From: Nostoc sp. FACHB-280
Lineage (GTDB): Bacteria; Cyanobacteriota; Cyanobacteriia; Cyanobacteriales; Nostocaceae
Direction: 5' to 3'
Length of the DNA stretch: 64,000 nt
NCBI RefSeq assembly: GCF_014697615.1
Contig: NZ_JACJSD010000007.1
Span: 1-64,000 of the forward strand
Shown: positions 7,587 to 27,148 of the stretch, in pieces
How the letters are laid out: every line of letters begins with the position of its first letter
Position numbering within the stretch: the stretch's first letter is position 1
The notes under the pieces: generated by a model
What the model was told of the DNA's origin: nothing
The model's input: only the letters and a program-made list of their open reading frames with translations
Databases searched by the model: none
Made by a program: the position numbers and the translations under genes

Positions 7587-9479
7587 CTAGTCACATAAAG
7601 TTAAATCAAACCAGAAAGTTGTCCCTACACCAATTTCGCTAACCAAGTTAACTTTACTACCATGTCTTTCTACAATATTTCTGACAATGGATAAACCCAA
7701 ACCAGTACCTTCTAAGGTGTGGACTCGGTTTTCGACGCGGAAGAAGCGGTCAAAAATGGCTTGTTGGTCTTCCGGTGCGATCCCAATTCCAGTATCAGAC
7801 ACTTCCACGCGCACACGGGGAGATTGATTTTGGGACTGGGGTTTGGGATCTAATTGGTAGGCGCGGAGAGCGACTTGACCGCCGGCTTTGGTAAATTTCA
7901 GAGCATTGCCGACTAAATTGGCTAAGACTTGGAGTAATAAATCATAGTTACCCATGACTAGCGGTAAACTAGGGGCAACTTCTTGAATGAGTTCAATCCC
8001 TTTATCTTTGGCGTTGAGTTGATAAGTTCGCAAAGTTTGTTCAATGGCTTGAGCGAGGTCTACACCATCAAAGTTATAACTACGACCAGATTCTAACTTA
8101 GATAAGTCTAAAACATCGTTAACTAAACGAGTCAGGCGATCGGTTTCATGGTTAACGGTTTTGAGAAAATCTTGACGCTGTTCTATACTCAAGTCTTCGC
8201 CGTAGTCGTGCAGAGTTTCAATAAAAGATTTGATATTGAATAACGGTGTCCGCAGTTCATGAGACACGTTGCTGATAAATTGGCTTTTGGCTTCGTTGAG
8301 TTCTACTTCCCGTGTAATATCTTGTACAGTAATCGCAATTCCTTTAATACTTTCTCGTTGTAAATTCAGCACCGTGGTTAATAAAATCCGAATGGTGCGC
8401 TTAGTTGGTTGATTCAGATGAATGCGAAACTCAGCACTATCGCATTCACCCGCAGCCATTTCGTACAAGGGACGGGTGATTTCCATCTGAATGGCGGAGG
8501 GTAATTGATGCAAGACATTACTACCGACGACATCATTACCTTCCCAGGCAAAAATCCTTCTGGCTGTGGGGTTGACTAAAATCACCTGCATGTTGTTGTC
8601 AATCAACACAGCACCATCGGCAATGGTGGAAACCAAAGTTTCGAGTTTGGCTTTTTCGGCGGTTAATTCTTCAATATTTTGTTCTTCATAGCGTTCTAGA
8701 CGCTCTGCCATATCATTAAAACTGAGAATTAACTCTCCAAGTTCGCCGCCTAGAGGTAAATCGATGCGCTGCTTAAAATTCCCGGTGGCGATTTGTTTGA
8801 CCCCGACTAGCAGTTCTTTAATCGGCTTGGTGATGGTTAAAGCATTAATTACCCCTGCCAAAATCACCATTACCCAAATTGTGATAAATACGGCGATGGT
8901 AACATCACGGGTGAAATTAGTAGAAATTACGGCTGTTTGGTTGGGGTTAATCCCAATCGCCAAGACACCCAAGTATTTTTTATCAACAATAAGGGGGACA
9001 AATACATCAGTGACAATGCCATCGGGGGTGTTATGTTGCCGCACCATTGGCTTATCGTCATTACCAGGGTAATCTTCTGGTAATTGTATCCGCCGCTCAA
9101 TTGTCAATAAAGAGTTTTCCACTTCGGGTTCCCAAAAGGGAATCCCGAAAAAGATTTTGCCGCCTTCGTCAGCGTAAAGCATATACCTCACACTGGAAGT
9201 ACTGCTGTAGAATCTTTGGGAAAATTGGGCAATCTCAGTGAGATTATTTTCTGCAATGAGGGGAGTAACGTTAGCAGCAAGCAGCAGTCCCAAGTCGCGG
9301 CCGAATCGGGTGTCATTCAAACGCGCATCTTGCTGAATTGTGTTTACAGCCCAAAAGGTCAGACCACTCATCACCAAAGAAACCACCAAAGTGGCAACAG
9401 CTAACAGCTTAGTTTGGAGGGTGAAATCTGACCACCAATTGGCGATCGCTTCTCGGATTGTTTTTAACAGAGCTAACAT
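7587..9479 (-). CDS. nblS: Sensor histidine kinase NblS (Hik33/DspA type, 630 aa)
   Basis: Membrane kinase that controls high-light, nutrient-stress and phycobilisome-degradation responses, normally acting through RpaB. Seen in order: first membrane helix about 24-46, an extracytoplasmic sensor domain, second helix about 195-216, HAMP about 217-268, a Leu-rich linker, PAS about 275-390, HisKA with phospho-acceptor His near 407 (NVSHELRTPLFNIKSF), and the HATPase boxes NALKFT, DTGIGI and GTGLGLSIV. The frame opens with TTG at 9485; ATG 9479 is preferred. purD lies about 130 bp upstream on the same strand, with a CTAGGGG/GGGGTTAG-type repeat between. The architecture and the sequence around FWEPEVE fit NblS; orthology is strongly inferred, not tested. 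Confidence 0.9.
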   Translation of the reverse strand: MLALLKTIREAIANWWSDFTLQTKLLAVATLVVSLVMSGLTFWAVNTIQQDARLNDTRFGRDLGLLLAANVTPLIAENNLTEIAQFSQRFYSSTSSVRYMLYADEGGKIFFGIPFWEPEVENSLLTIERRIQLPEDYPGNDDKPMVRQHNTPDGIVTDVFVPLIVDKKYLGVLAIGINPNQTAVISTNFTRDVTIAVFITIWVMVILAGVINALTITKPIKELLVGVKQIATGNFKQRIDLPLGGELGELILSFNDMAERLERYEEQNIEELTAEKAKLETLVSTIADGAVLIDNNMQVILVNPTARRIFAWEGNDVVGSNVLHQLPSAIQMEITRPLYEMAAGECDSAEFRIHLNQPTKRTIRILLTTVLNLQRESIKGIAITVQDITREVELNEAKSQFISNVSHELRTPLFNIKSFIETLHDYGEDLSIEQRQDFLKTVNHETDRLTRLVNDVLDLSKLESGRSYNFDGVDLAQAIEQTLRTYQLNAKDKGIELIQEVAPSLPLVMGNYDLLLQVLANLVGNALKFTKAGGQVALRAYQLDPKPQSQNQSPRVRVEVSDTGIGIAPEDQQAIFDRFFRVENRVHTLEGTGLGLSIVRNIVERHGSKVNLVSEIGVGTTFWFDLTLCD

Positions 9480-22996: not shown

Positions 22997-23320
22997 TTAA
23001 ATATTCTTGGCTAATTGTCGTTCGGGTAGAAAAGCCAAAATTATGTGTTCTTCTGGTATTCCTTCTGCGATTAAATCTGTGATAATGCCAGTTTCAATAC
23101 CGTCGTATTCTACCCAAACTTTTTGATCATGAAGAGTTACATAAATTATATTGCCTCTAACTCTTCTGCCTCGTTCCCAGCCTACTTGCATTAAGGCATA
23201 CCGATTTTGCTGTTCATCAAAAACAGTATCCAGCCGAATTTGCCCATGAGATGGAGTAAATTGGGCATATTTCTGAATTACTCGTTTTATAATTCCTGCA
23301 TAATGCGTGGTGGTATCCAT
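22997..23320 (-). CDS. XisI family protein (107 aa)
   Basis: Member of the XisI family named after the fdxN-element excision controlling factor of Anabaena. Characteristic features are HYAGIIKRVIQKYAQF, the beta-rich middle (RYALMQVGWERGRRVRGNII) and WVEYDGIETGIITDLIAEGI near the end. ATG 23320 lies inside the 3' end of the split xisH gene, so the pair originally overlapped by about 34 bp and was translationally coupled. Such pairs are numerous in heterocystous cyanobacteria and are mostly not near excisable elements; a toxin-antitoxin-like role has been suspected, which is inference. The reading frame is intact although its partner is disrupted. Confidence 0.88.
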   Translation of the reverse strand: MDTTTHYAGIIKRVIQKYAQFTPSHGQIRLDTVFDEQQNRYALMQVGWERGRRVRGNIIYVTLHDQKVWVEYDGIETGIITDLIAEGIPEEHIILAFLPERQLAKNI

Positions 23321-23949
23321 TGTTTTACCTCAACTTTATTTGAATCTATAACCAGTAATTTCATAGGTAATTCACTAATAACCAATTGACCGATAGGTTC
23401 ACTAAATATTTCTTCGTAGATAATGTCTGTAATAGCAAGATATATTTCCCTTTCTGGATCAACTTGATTGAGTAAAAGTTGATAAAGAGTATAGGCTCTC
23501 CCAGACTTGGGTTGATAAATTAACACTAAAAAATGGCTCAAATGATTGATATAACAAGGTTTCGCTAATATAAAAACAATGATTTAATAAAAATTTACTT
23601 TATTACTCCTGAATCCCAGACTATGTAAGGATTTAACCTGATATTAAGTATTAATTTGCTATAGCTAGTCTAGGAGAGCCAGAGTATATTGACCTATTGC
23701 TTGTTCTAAGTCGGCAATTACAGACTTACCTCTAAATTCCTTAATTTCTATCGCAATCTGGCGATTTTGCCTTTCAGCACCAATAAATGGTGATGAAATT
23801 TTATGAGAGTCACTAGACTCTGTTGCTGCTAAATCTACAAATAAAAATCGTTCACCGTAGGATATTATGTATGGATCGTTGGTAATTGTCCAACCATCTT
23901 TGATGATAGCTTGTTTAACAAGAGTGTGAATAGTATCTCTTTGTGGCAT
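23287..23949 (-). pseudogene. xisH-like gene split by a MITE insertion
   Basis: XisH partner of XisI (nuclease-like fold). The N-terminal part (23949 down to about 23681) encodes MPQRDTIHTLVKQAI through LEQAIGQYTL and then runs into ALLD and a stop inside the inserted element. The C-terminal part (about 23493 down to 23287) encodes YQLLLNQVDPEREIYLAI through KQWIPPRIMQEL. Removing the 187-bp element and one copy of the 8-bp duplication restores a single frame of exactly 155 codons plus stop, with the family's GQY-LY junction intact. The current product would lack the C-terminal 65 residues, so it is most likely inactive. Confidence 0.9.
23494..23680. mobile_element. 187-bp MITE with 8-bp target duplication, ISL3-like ends
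   Basis: Left end GGCTCTCCCAGACTT, right end (inverted) GGCTCTCCTAGACTA: 13 of 15 match. It is flanked by AGAGTATA at 23486-23493 and 23681-23688. Ends beginning GGCTCT and 8-bp duplications are typical of the ISL3 family, so it is probably a non-autonomous ISL3 derivative. No transposase is encoded. Confidence 0.88.
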
Positions 23950-24028: not shown

Positions 24029-27000
24029 CTAGACAAACAAAACAGCGATCGCACCACCAAAGGCGGCGAAAATTGCGGAAACAACGGCGGTAGCAAATAA
24101 CCACCAAGCGGCTGTAGCCGCGGCTTTACGGGTTTCTTCGGCTTGCTTTTGGGCTTGACGTTTGACTTCTTCTAAACGGCGTTGTGCTTCTTGTTGGATG
24201 CGTTCGGCGCGTTGTAAGACTGTGTTCCGGGCGCGTTCCACTTGGTCGATAATCCGGTTTGCATCTTCCTCGGAGATATCTTCACGGGAACTCATGATGG
24301 CGACTAGGGTATCACGGTTGAAGGCAGATAAGCGATCGCGCAAGGCATCAAATCCCGCCTGTGGATCATCGAATAACTGACGCACATCCCGTTTAATGCC
24401 ATCATAGTTGAGTTCTGGGCGATCTAAAGAATTGAGATAGTTACGGATACGGGCAAAAATCCCATCCACGACATCTTGTATCCGGCGTTGAATACTGCGT
24501 ATTTGTTCGACAAATTGATCCCGGACAGAAACTATATTGTCTGCAATTCTGGCGGCTTCTTCATCGCTCATATCTTCCCGAATTTTCAGTAAGGCGATGA
24601 TGGTAGAACGGTCAAAATGCGCCAAGCGATCGCTCAAACTTTCTACTCCGACCCGTGGATCATGCAACAATAATTGCAAGTCACGTTTAATACCTTCGGG
24701 GTTGAGTTCTTCTTTGCCAGTTTGTCGCAAATATTCTTCTAGATAAGCTTTGAATGTATCCATTCTTTGCTGAGTACGAGTAGCCAAACGGCGGGGCGCA
24801 CGTACAATATTGCGGATGGATGTTTGCATCGAGTCAATCACTTGGTTGACTTGTTCTTCACTCAAGTCTCGCCGTTGACTCAGCAATTTGACTAAGGTAT
24901 CGCGGTCTACTTGGGATAAACGTCGCCGCAAAGCGATCGCACCTTCTCTGGGATTGGCAAACAAGCGATCTAAATCTCGTTGAATTCCTTCGGGGTTGAG
25001 TTCTGCTTTGCCAGTGTTCCGCAGATAATCTGTAATTGTCGTCATCACAGAATCATATTGCTCTTTGGCTTTGTCAGCGACGGCTTGGGGTGCGTGACGA
25101 ATACTGTGCCAAGAATCTTCCACAGTATTAATAATGTTATTAACTTGGTCTTCGCTCAAATCTTGGCGCTGACTTAATAACTGCACTAAAGTATCGCGGT
25201 CAAAACGAGACAATCTGGCGCGAATCGCACTCATCCCGGCTTGGGGGTCTTCTAATAATCGCTTGAGGTCGGCGCGAATTGCATCAGGGTTTAATTCTGC
25301 TTTACCTGTGTTCCGCAGATATGATTCTACATTCAACCACAGGGTTTCTGCTTGATATTTTGCCTGTTCTGCTATACCTTGGGCAGTAATTAAAACGCGA
25401 TCGCGTTGTCTTTCCAATTCATCTAAAATTGGTTCAACTTCATATACTTGCACATCGTTGCGTTCCAGCAGAATTTGTCGCATTTCTGCCCGGTCAATCA
25501 CTGCAAAACGGCGTGACAGTGTTTCAGCATCTGCATCAGAATCGGACAACAAAGACTGAAAATCCCGTTCAATACCTTCCGCAGTTAAATCTGATTTTGG
25601 TGTCACCAACAAATAACTTTCGACTCGCCGTTGCAAATCTTGGGCGATTTCCCTTTCTTCTTCGGCTGTAACTGTGACTACGACTGATTGACGTACAACT
25701 TCTAGACGGTCGGCGATGCGTTGAATTTCATCTTGGGTAAGTAAGCCTCTATCTTGCAGAATCCTCACAAAATCATTGCGAGACAGGCGGTCTAATTCTC
25801 TTTTAATTATGCCAGGGTCGGCGGCTGGGTCATAAATCACATCGCGGAATTCTTGGGCGATTCTTTCTTGGCTGAGTTGCCAAGCATAGGTGTTATGCAG
25901 ATAATTTTCGATGTCAGCGCGAATTGGGCTGTAAGGTTGGGAAGGTACGGGAAGTCCTAATTTATCAGCTTGTTCTGTGGCTTTATCTTTGGCGGTGGTT
26001 AGAGACTGTAAAATCTTTTCCACATCAATATCTGATAAATCAGTGCGTCCCAAAACAATACCAGTTAAAGCCGTTAAACCTTGCTGGAGTGTCTGCTGAA
26101 TGGGGCCTGGTGTGGCTTTTTGGTCAGCTTGTTTCGCGGAACGGCTTTCCGCAATTAACTGTTCTAGTTTGGCGTTGAGTTCGTCGGTTCTAGTTTGTCC
26201 TGGTGGTAAAGATTTGAGATAGTCAACTAATTCCCCTAAACGGTCTTGAACAGGCGGCTGTTGTCCTACCACTTGCTGCCAAACATTGTGTAGTGTATCT
26301 GCAATGCGGTTAACGTCGCGTTTAGAAAGGTCGGTGCGACTGCTGACTAAATCAATAAATTTTTGGCGGTCGATGTGGCGTAAATCAGGGCTACCGGCGA
26401 TCGCTTTTAATTGTGGATCATTGAGTAATTTTTCAAATTCGCCCCGGATTTGCGAGATATCCAACTCTGGTGGACGCAGTTTTTCTAGGTAATCTTCAAC
26501 ATTTTCTCGAATGCTAATTGGGTCGATTGCACTACCTAATTCTCGACGTACAGCAGCGGCAGCGGCTTCGGCGGTGGCTACCACTTGCTGATTCACGGCT
26601 TTCGCACCCAAAGCGGCGGTAGCAGTACCCATAATCGCCTGAAAACCAGAGGTAGCAGTATTCACCACTGAACCAATTAAGGAACCCACAGTAGTGGAAC
26701 TAACCCACACTAGTAATAAGAAATATGCACCCCAAATCACTAACCCTAGAATTGCCCCTAATCTGGGGTCAAAAATCACTAAGCTTAATTTTACTGCTAG
26801 GAAACTGGCAATTAATAAGGCAATAGTAACAGTAACTAGCGTCCAAATTCCTACAGCCGTACCAATTTTGCGAATGGTACCGCCAAAACTGCCTGTTTCC
26901 CCATGACTAGAATCGGAATCTGAGGAATGTCCTAAGTAGGAAATACCAGCAGCCACGGAGAGATTGGTTAGCACTAATTGAAAAGCAAAAGCCAAAATCA

Positions 27001-27148
27001 CACCGGAAATTAAGGCGACAAAAAAGCGCGGCCCGGAAGTTAGCACCGATGCTTGCGCTGGCGTGACGTTGGAGGGATCTACAGAAATTTGTGCTACCCA
27101 TAACAATGGTTTGTAGAGTCCCAACATAATGCCTGTACTTTGAATCAT
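24029..27148 (-). CDS. Membrane protein with seven ~95-residue helical repeats (1039 aa)
   Basis: No known family recognised. Three membrane segments at about 41-65, 98-125 and 130-150, an Ala-rich linker, then from about residue 213 seven degenerate repeats of roughly 80-110 residues. The consensus is a helix ending YLRNTGKAELNPEGI, then RDL-LL-DP, then RLS-DRDTLV-LLSQR-DLSE and a terminal IID helix. Repeats 4-7 are the most alike. A Lys/Gln-rich helix and one C-terminal membrane segment (about 1010-1039) finish the protein. ATG 27148 has AAGGAAAT upstream. Divergent from the HLIP genes; the HLR1 box at 27490 lies between. A structural or scaffolding role at a membrane is plausible but unproven. 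Confidence 0.85.
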   Translation of the reverse strand: MIQSTGIMLGLYKPLLWVAQISVDPSNVTPAQASVLTSGPRFFVALISGVILAFAFQLVLTNLSVAAGISYLGHSSDSDSSHGETGSFGGTIRKIGTAVGIWTLVTVTIALLIASFLAVKLSLVIFDPRLGAILGLVIWGAYFLLLVWVSSTTVGSLIGSVVNTATSGFQAIMGTATAALGAKAVNQQVVATAEAAAAAVRRELGSAIDPISIRENVEDYLEKLRPPELDISQIRGEFEKLLNDPQLKAIAGSPDLRHIDRQKFIDLVSSRTDLSKRDVNRIADTLHNVWQQVVGQQPPVQDRLGELVDYLKSLPPGQTRTDELNAKLEQLIAESRSAKQADQKATPGPIQQTLQQGLTALTGIVLGRTDLSDIDVEKILQSLTTAKDKATEQADKLGLPVPSQPYSPIRADIENYLHNTYAWQLSQERIAQEFRDVIYDPAADPGIIKRELDRLSRNDFVRILQDRGLLTQDEIQRIADRLEVVRQSVVVTVTAEEEREIAQDLQRRVESYLLVTPKSDLTAEGIERDFQSLLSDSDADAETLSRRFAVIDRAEMRQILLERNDVQVYEVEPILDELERQRDRVLITAQGIAEQAKYQAETLWLNVESYLRNTGKAELNPDAIRADLKRLLEDPQAGMSAIRARLSRFDRDTLVQLLSQRQDLSEDQVNNIINTVEDSWHSIRHAPQAVADKAKEQYDSVMTTITDYLRNTGKAELNPEGIQRDLDRLFANPREGAIALRRRLSQVDRDTLVKLLSQRRDLSEEQVNQVIDSMQTSIRNIVRAPRRLATRTQQRMDTFKAYLEEYLRQTGKEELNPEGIKRDLQLLLHDPRVGVESLSDRLAHFDRSTIIALLKIREDMSDEEAARIADNIVSVRDQFVEQIRSIQRRIQDVVDGIFARIRNYLNSLDRPELNYDGIKRDVRQLFDDPQAGFDALRDRLSAFNRDTLVAIMSSREDISEEDANRIIDQVERARNTVLQRAERIQQEAQRRLEEVKRQAQKQAEETRKAAATAAWWLFATAVVSAIFAAFGGAIAVLFV

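Follow-up and report, generated by a model that had tools for sequence, protein, structure and literature searches.

A recently active 187-bp ISL3-type MITE as the probable cause of xisH disruption beside an open xisI in Nostoc

The xisH gene of a stand-alone xisHI pair in Nostoc sp. FACHB-280 is split by a short non-coding element, while the adjoining xisI gene is open. We are highly confident that the element is a recently active 187-bp MITE of ISL3 type that inserted into xisH, likely through the action of a resident ISL3 element. The pair lies in a 64,000-nucleotide stretch of DNA (the window), on contig C81 of a genome of 7.64 Mb in 113 contigs (G000).

The interrupted xisH gene and its relatives

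The features of the locus, in coordinates of the window, are as follows.

22997..23320, minus strand: xisI, open, 107 aa; start codon within the xisH 3' end; PF08869 match, E=2.2e-30
23287..23493, minus strand: xisH 3' piece, C-terminal part (YQLLLNQVD...IMQEL); the frame now starts only inside the MITE
23486..23493, plus strand: target-site duplication AGAGTATA, left copy, 8 bp
23494..23680, plus strand: MITE, 187 bp; terminal inverted repeats GGCTCTCCCAGACTT / GGCTCTCCTAGACTA; 31% GC; stops in six frames
23681..23688, plus strand: target-site duplication AGAGTATA, right copy, 8 bp; a single copy is present in Nostoc G009
23680..23949, minus strand: xisH 5' piece, codons 1-90; the frame enters the MITE for 4 codons, then meets a stop

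The start of the element and its inverted end are equal at 13 of 15 positions, and the ends carry GGCTCTCC. Its GC content is 31%, compared with 40% in the window, and all six of its frames are closed by stops. When folded on the xisH strand, it gave a z of -4.6, a value equalled by none of 200 shuffles. Together with the dispersed copies described below, the short length, the lack of coding capacity, the terminal inverted repeats and the target-site duplications identify it as a MITE. A phage origin was rejected, as none of 50,697 phage records gave a match at E 1e-5.

Deletion on paper of the MITE and one 8-bp copy yielded a single xisH frame of 155 codons, in which GQYTL is joined to YQLLLNQVD. 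The joined 155-aa protein matched the XisH profile PF08814 over the whole domain (positions 1-133 of 134, E=1.9e-47); with the broken frame of 94 codons, the match ended at position 80 (E=5.3e-29). The ATG of xisI, at 23320, lies 34 bp into the xisH 3' end and is intact. The initial annotation had placed an element of 187 bp with 15-base ends and flanking 8-bp repeats at 23494-23680, which proved exact, and its reconstruction of a single xisH frame, recognisable as XisH, with an undamaged xisI start was reproduced. It had also stated that XisI is left without a full-length partner. This holds for its own locus only; G000 has five other full xisH genes, 32-39% identical (blastp), which are at most candidate substitutes.

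Promoter-like sites between 23300 and 24100 numbered three, against 3.4 in shuffles, and none was within the MITE; terminator-like sites in the same interval numbered two, against 0.5 in shuffles, both outside the MITE and on the strand opposite xisH. On the minus strand, a frame that opens at a TTG in the MITE continues through the xisH 3' piece as far as the overlap with xisI (23287-23541) and might preserve translational coupling to xisI. The pair is adjoined by a gene for a 1039-aa protein (24029-27148, minus strand) with internal repeats, seen as multiple self-matches to relatives, and only one weak, short match in Pfam. No recombinase domain was found in ten frames near the pair (12.4 to 34.7 kb of the window), whose products include NadA and subunits of cytochrome oxidase. 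A PADLOC search for defence systems gave no match for either XisH or XisI, so that assignment of the pair to a known defence system was set aside.

An uninterrupted site was found in a related Nostoc, G009, where the orthologous xisHI is 86-87% identical, AGAGTATA occurs once, and the frame reads LYKLLLNQVD across the site. A family-wide search for the same XisI subfamily listed 33 matches, 30 of which became loci; at these, xisH was full-length and without stops in 17, not so in 12, and cut by a contig end in one. The flanking residues are contiguous at 20 of the 30 loci, including that of G009, and the possibility that the segment is a natural part of XisH was rejected. It was absent from all 17 full-length xisH orthologues, as well as from four more intact orthologues (65-69%) of Lyngbya, Kastovskya, Trichocoleus and Roseofilum, which were found in a scan of named genomes. 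According to the initial annotation, orthologues with the segment as coding sequence would speak against an insertion; none of these 17 and four genes is such a case.

The G009 gene is itself broken by another insert of ca. 130 bp (L115 1315-1444, G009:C158), nearer the xisH 3' end. This insert is MITE-like, with ends GAGG(A/T)TGTTTGAAAAGT and TAA on both sides; its end motif was not found in the window. In a third genome, G010, ca. 550 bp of xisH are deleted (L128 about 8901-8905, G010:C28), and the xisI gene is 98% identical to that of the window; the deletion may have taken out an earlier insert. The three genus genomes in which the locus was found therefore carry three different xisH lesions, and xisI is open in all of them. 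In G001, xisH and xisI are both absent at the corresponding place. Comparison of G000 with G009 gave dN/dS of 0.19 in xisH (5' piece) and of 0.11 in xisI, the former value indicating that xisH was under constraint until recently.

MITE copies and resident ISL3 elements

Twelve copies of the MITE, each exactly 187 bp long, were found in G000, i.e., 11 beyond the copy in xisH. Eight copies, that in xisH among them, are identical; the other four form a second type, mutually identical and 17 substitutions away from the first, though the identity could partly reflect assembly consensus, since the contigs of the draft G000 assembly break off at ISL3 copies (127-base contig ends). The copies occupy different sites with different duplications, which are exact around 11 copies and contain one mismatch around the remaining one, and whose A+T content is 83%. 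One identical copy (L003 1501-1687, G000:C70) apparently lies within a frame that encodes an M48 peptidase domain, just past the domain, with an open frame on its far side. Two further copies, in L008 (G000:C13) and L012 (G000:C20), apparently split open frames; the L008 frame is short and has a sub-threshold likeness to a ribbon-helix-helix antitoxin (E=0.044).

Outside G000, the MITE is widespread. Counting G000, it was found in seven of the 11 genus genomes, with 0-2 matches in every genome other than G000. Family-wide, 74 of 217 genomes contain it, representing 24 of 56 genera; the copy numbers from this search are lower bounds, as three candidates were scored per genome. Relatives of ca. 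187 bp with 80-96% identity are spread over the family. The named records with the MITE are seven plasmids of Nostoc and Trichormus. The expectation of further copies, both in the same genome and in other Nostocales, was thus borne out.

The initial annotation had attributed the element to an ISL3-type transposase on the basis of its ends and its 8-bp duplication, which are features found throughout the ISL3 family. A complete ISL3 element is indeed present in G000 (C40:78797-80215, 1419 bp). It has GGCTCTCCCAGA ends, is flanked on either side by AAATTTTT, and encodes a transposase that matches PF01610 and NF033550 (E=2.6e-95). A transposase gene between matching ends, flanked by an 8-bp duplication, supports the attribution. 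With one mismatch allowed, the end motif gave 43 hits in G000 (the reversed-pattern control, one); these are 24 MITE ends, 17 ISL3 ends and two others. Two of the ISL3 ends belong to the complete C40 element, and the rest lie at the ends of contigs: eight right ends, which adjoin ISL3 C-terminal code, and seven left ends, assigned by their likeness to the C40 left end (19 of 20 bases). An identical 8-bp word links six of these left ends to six of the right ones. We conclude that the collapsed ISL3 copies also make 8-bp duplications, in agreement with the complete element.

The first 20 bases of the MITE right end equal those of the ISL3 ends at 17-18 positions; the likeness of the left end is weaker (15-16 of 20). 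BLASTN of the MITE against the C40 element revealed a common part limited to the terminal ca. 30 bases, other matches being short and at chance level. Because the two are alike at their termini only, the MITE is not a plain internal deletion of the C40 copy, and because it is without a coding frame, we refer to it as ISL3-type rather than as an ISL3 insertion sequence proper. It shares with the family, as represented by the resident element, the GGCTCTCC... ends and the 8-bp duplication, and differs in having no transposase and no interior in common with the one complete ISL3 copy. With an interior unlike ISL3, mobilisation by ISL3 in trans is something that we infer from the ends and the duplications, and we regard it as well founded.

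Across the genus, the presence of ISL3 and the number of MITEs did not correspond. At least 15 contig-end ISL3 fragments were detected in G005 (87% over 23 residues), and the six ISL3 ends read there (L266, L271, L274, L277, L280, L283) have the same 20-base end as those of G000, but the MITE content of G005 is one 74% match and one short fragment. Conversely, two MITE relatives and no ISL3 match were found in G001. A 51% transposase, further fragments and one MITE were found in G009.

In the mechanism that we propose, the resident ISL3 transposase would, most likely, recognise the similar GGCTCTCC... ends in trans, move the MITE, and cut the target with an 8-bp stagger, giving rise to the AGAGTATA duplication. 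The insertion reduces XisH to 90 native residues and leaves xisI open. That a resident ISL3 was the actual mobiliser is suggested by its ends, and xisI is presumably still expressed after the insertion.

Two other readings of the insertion were weighed. The MITE might simply have arisen by deletion from an ISL3 copy of the same genome, as its similar ends and duplications of equal length would suggest. We consider this improbable, since only the terminal ca. 30 bases are held in common with the C40 element and since the ca. 187-bp relatives across the family point to a lineage of its own, with the proviso that the comparison of interiors rests on the C40 copy, the interiors of the collapsed copies being absent from the assembly. 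Alternatively, the split gene could be functional and the insertion a switch, with excision in some cells restoring xisH as in the case of the fdxN element. The MITE can be removed to the base on paper, and both genes have been described in DNA that is excised during development (PMC4874684); the XisH and XisI proteins of the fdxN element of Nostoc PCC 7120 belong to the same families as the pair in the window. This pair differs from that of the fdxN element, however, in that no recombinase domain is encoded in the ten neighbouring frames and in that both genes are absent at the corresponding place in G001. Moreover, no frame of the MITE could encode a recombinase, each of its 12 copies has a site and a duplication of its own, and the same gene is broken in relatives by an unrelated insert (G009) and a deletion (G010). 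An excision switch is thus highly unlikely, and the missing recombinase and the many other MITE copies led us to rule it out in favour of insertion of an ISL3-type MITE.

Among known elements, the MITE is possibly Nezha or a relative of Nezha. Nezha is a cyanobacterial MITE and the window element is likewise a MITE of Nostocales, so that the two are likened by description and host, not by sequence. Nezha was reportedly described by Zhou et al. in 2008 from Anabaena variabilis ATCC 29413 and Nostoc PCC 7120; the former organism, as Trichormus variabilis ATCC 29413, carries a relative of the MITE at 91% on a plasmid. Mobilisation of Nezha by ISNpu3-like elements has been proposed (in a passage of PMC3049150). 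Inactivation of genes by a non-autonomous element, as seen here, is also known from the MITE insertions in mcy clusters of Baltic Anabaena (Fewer et al. 2011, as cited in an excerpt of PMC10969869). The target differs, being xisH in our case, and a related strain has another MITE-like insert in xisH.

Loss of xisH and retention of xisI

To take a census of xisH/xisI pairs, profile searches of the 11 genus genomes were used, and 87 XisH and 129 XisI matches were assembled into 132 loci. A gene was called full when a single match without stops covered at least 115 of 134 (XisH) or at least 95 of 110 (XisI) positions. The numbers refer to profile matches and not to gene models, and orthologues of several species were counted separately. 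Both genes were full at 60 of the 132 loci. A full XisI was found with no XisH match beside it at 26 loci and with a broken XisH at 15; at 23 loci there was a partial XisI and no XisH, and at eight a partial XisH and no XisI. No locus had a full XisH without a full XisI. Every full xisH (60/60) was therefore paired with a full xisI, while 41 full xisI genes were without a full xisH. One match counted as full XisI (G002:C1:5392539) covers positions 15-110 only. Six of the eight loci with a partial XisH and no XisI were read as sequence, and the C9 locus ends near a contig edge.

All 15 broken xisH genes were read. Six contain single stops, some of which could be sequencing errors; the rest comprise a two-stop remnant, a frameshift, an internal deletion, four truncations or larger deletions, and two inserts. 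In a rapidly built and weakly resolved tree of the 101 full XisI, based on 119 columns, lone sequences are intermixed with paired ones, and a separate clade of lone XisI was not seen. The tree requires 27 changes between the paired and unpaired states, 15 of which are forced by well-supported branches; shuffled labels required 32 changes on average, and the real labels are slightly clustered. The scattered changes indicate that loss of xisH beside a retained xisI is recurrent.

For a wider sample, named loci were selected by their XisH matches, the 80 best being taken from at least 533 candidates. XisH was full at 71 of these 80, and a full XisI lay beside it at 68 of the 71. In one of the others (L187), XisI is cut by a contig end; the two exceptions are L216, where XisI has an internal stop, and L208, where no XisI was found. 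They make the rule strong rather than absolute. The nine partial XisH of this sample were accompanied by a full XisI in seven cases. The four xisH and seven xisI genes reported for Thiomargarita (in a passage of PMC4853749) differ in the same direction as in our census.

XisH as a putative nuclease and the role of XisI

Residues D39, E67 and K69, which we take to be catalytic, are invariant across 24 aligned XisH sequences. The MITE spares the equivalent D39, E68 and K70 of the window protein in the 90-residue remnant and removes the rest of the fold, and the truncated XisH is probably inactive. The predicted structure of an XisH orthologue (mean pLDDT 83) matched two solved XisH structures, 2okf and 2inb, with a TM by target of 0.84-0.85, and AF2093 (2ph7) followed as a weaker match; in the remaining matches, with E above 0.02, nucleases were mixed with unrelated GTPases. 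XisH is listed as a member of the PD-(D/E)XK superfamily in a portion of PMC1189080, and a passage of PMC11297309 counts XisH and XisI among the domains of predicted eCIS-associated toxins in Moorena. In the portions of the literature that touch on a toxin-like reading of xisHI, we found no proposal of XisI as an antidote. The function of xisH and xisI in strains without heterocysts was called undisclosed in part of the text of PMC2674450.

The one-way dependence of full xisH on full xisI fits either a nuclease restrained by XisI or an independently useful XisI. In the latter case, XisI would have a job of its own, for example as a factor in regulation or directionality, and XisH would be a dispensable half that needs XisI. 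The probability of this explanation is, in our judgement, not far short of even: at 26 of the 132 loci a full xisI stands without an adjacent xisH match, and Hwang et al. (cited in a passage of PMC4853749) regarded it as likely that XisI is a recombination directionality factor. However, the 15 forced changes on the XisI tree leave no distinct lineage of lone XisI, and the rarity of an intact lone xisH calls for the extra premise that XisH is useless alone. The account of tolerance that we favour, tentatively, is that XisH is a nuclease that the cell does not keep without XisI. A PD-(D/E)XK nuclease would be kept only where XisI is present, so that loss of xisH would be tolerated and loss of xisI alone would be costly. 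The xisHI pairs may then be addiction-like modules, in which XisH would harm its own cell without XisI, and xisH would be disabled time and again by MITEs or point lesions, with XisI being kept; this is possible rather than probable.

The MITE itself is ordinary and of a known kind; with its identical copies, its intact ends and a candidate transposase in the same genome, it is a clean case of probably recent ISL3-type mobilisation. Of more interest is the repeated loss of xisH with xisI kept, since the one-way survival of xisI provides a simple, testable idea of the role of the pair. If xisHI pairs are indeed addiction-like, one of them would have been recruited late for the role of XisH and XisI in fdxN excision.
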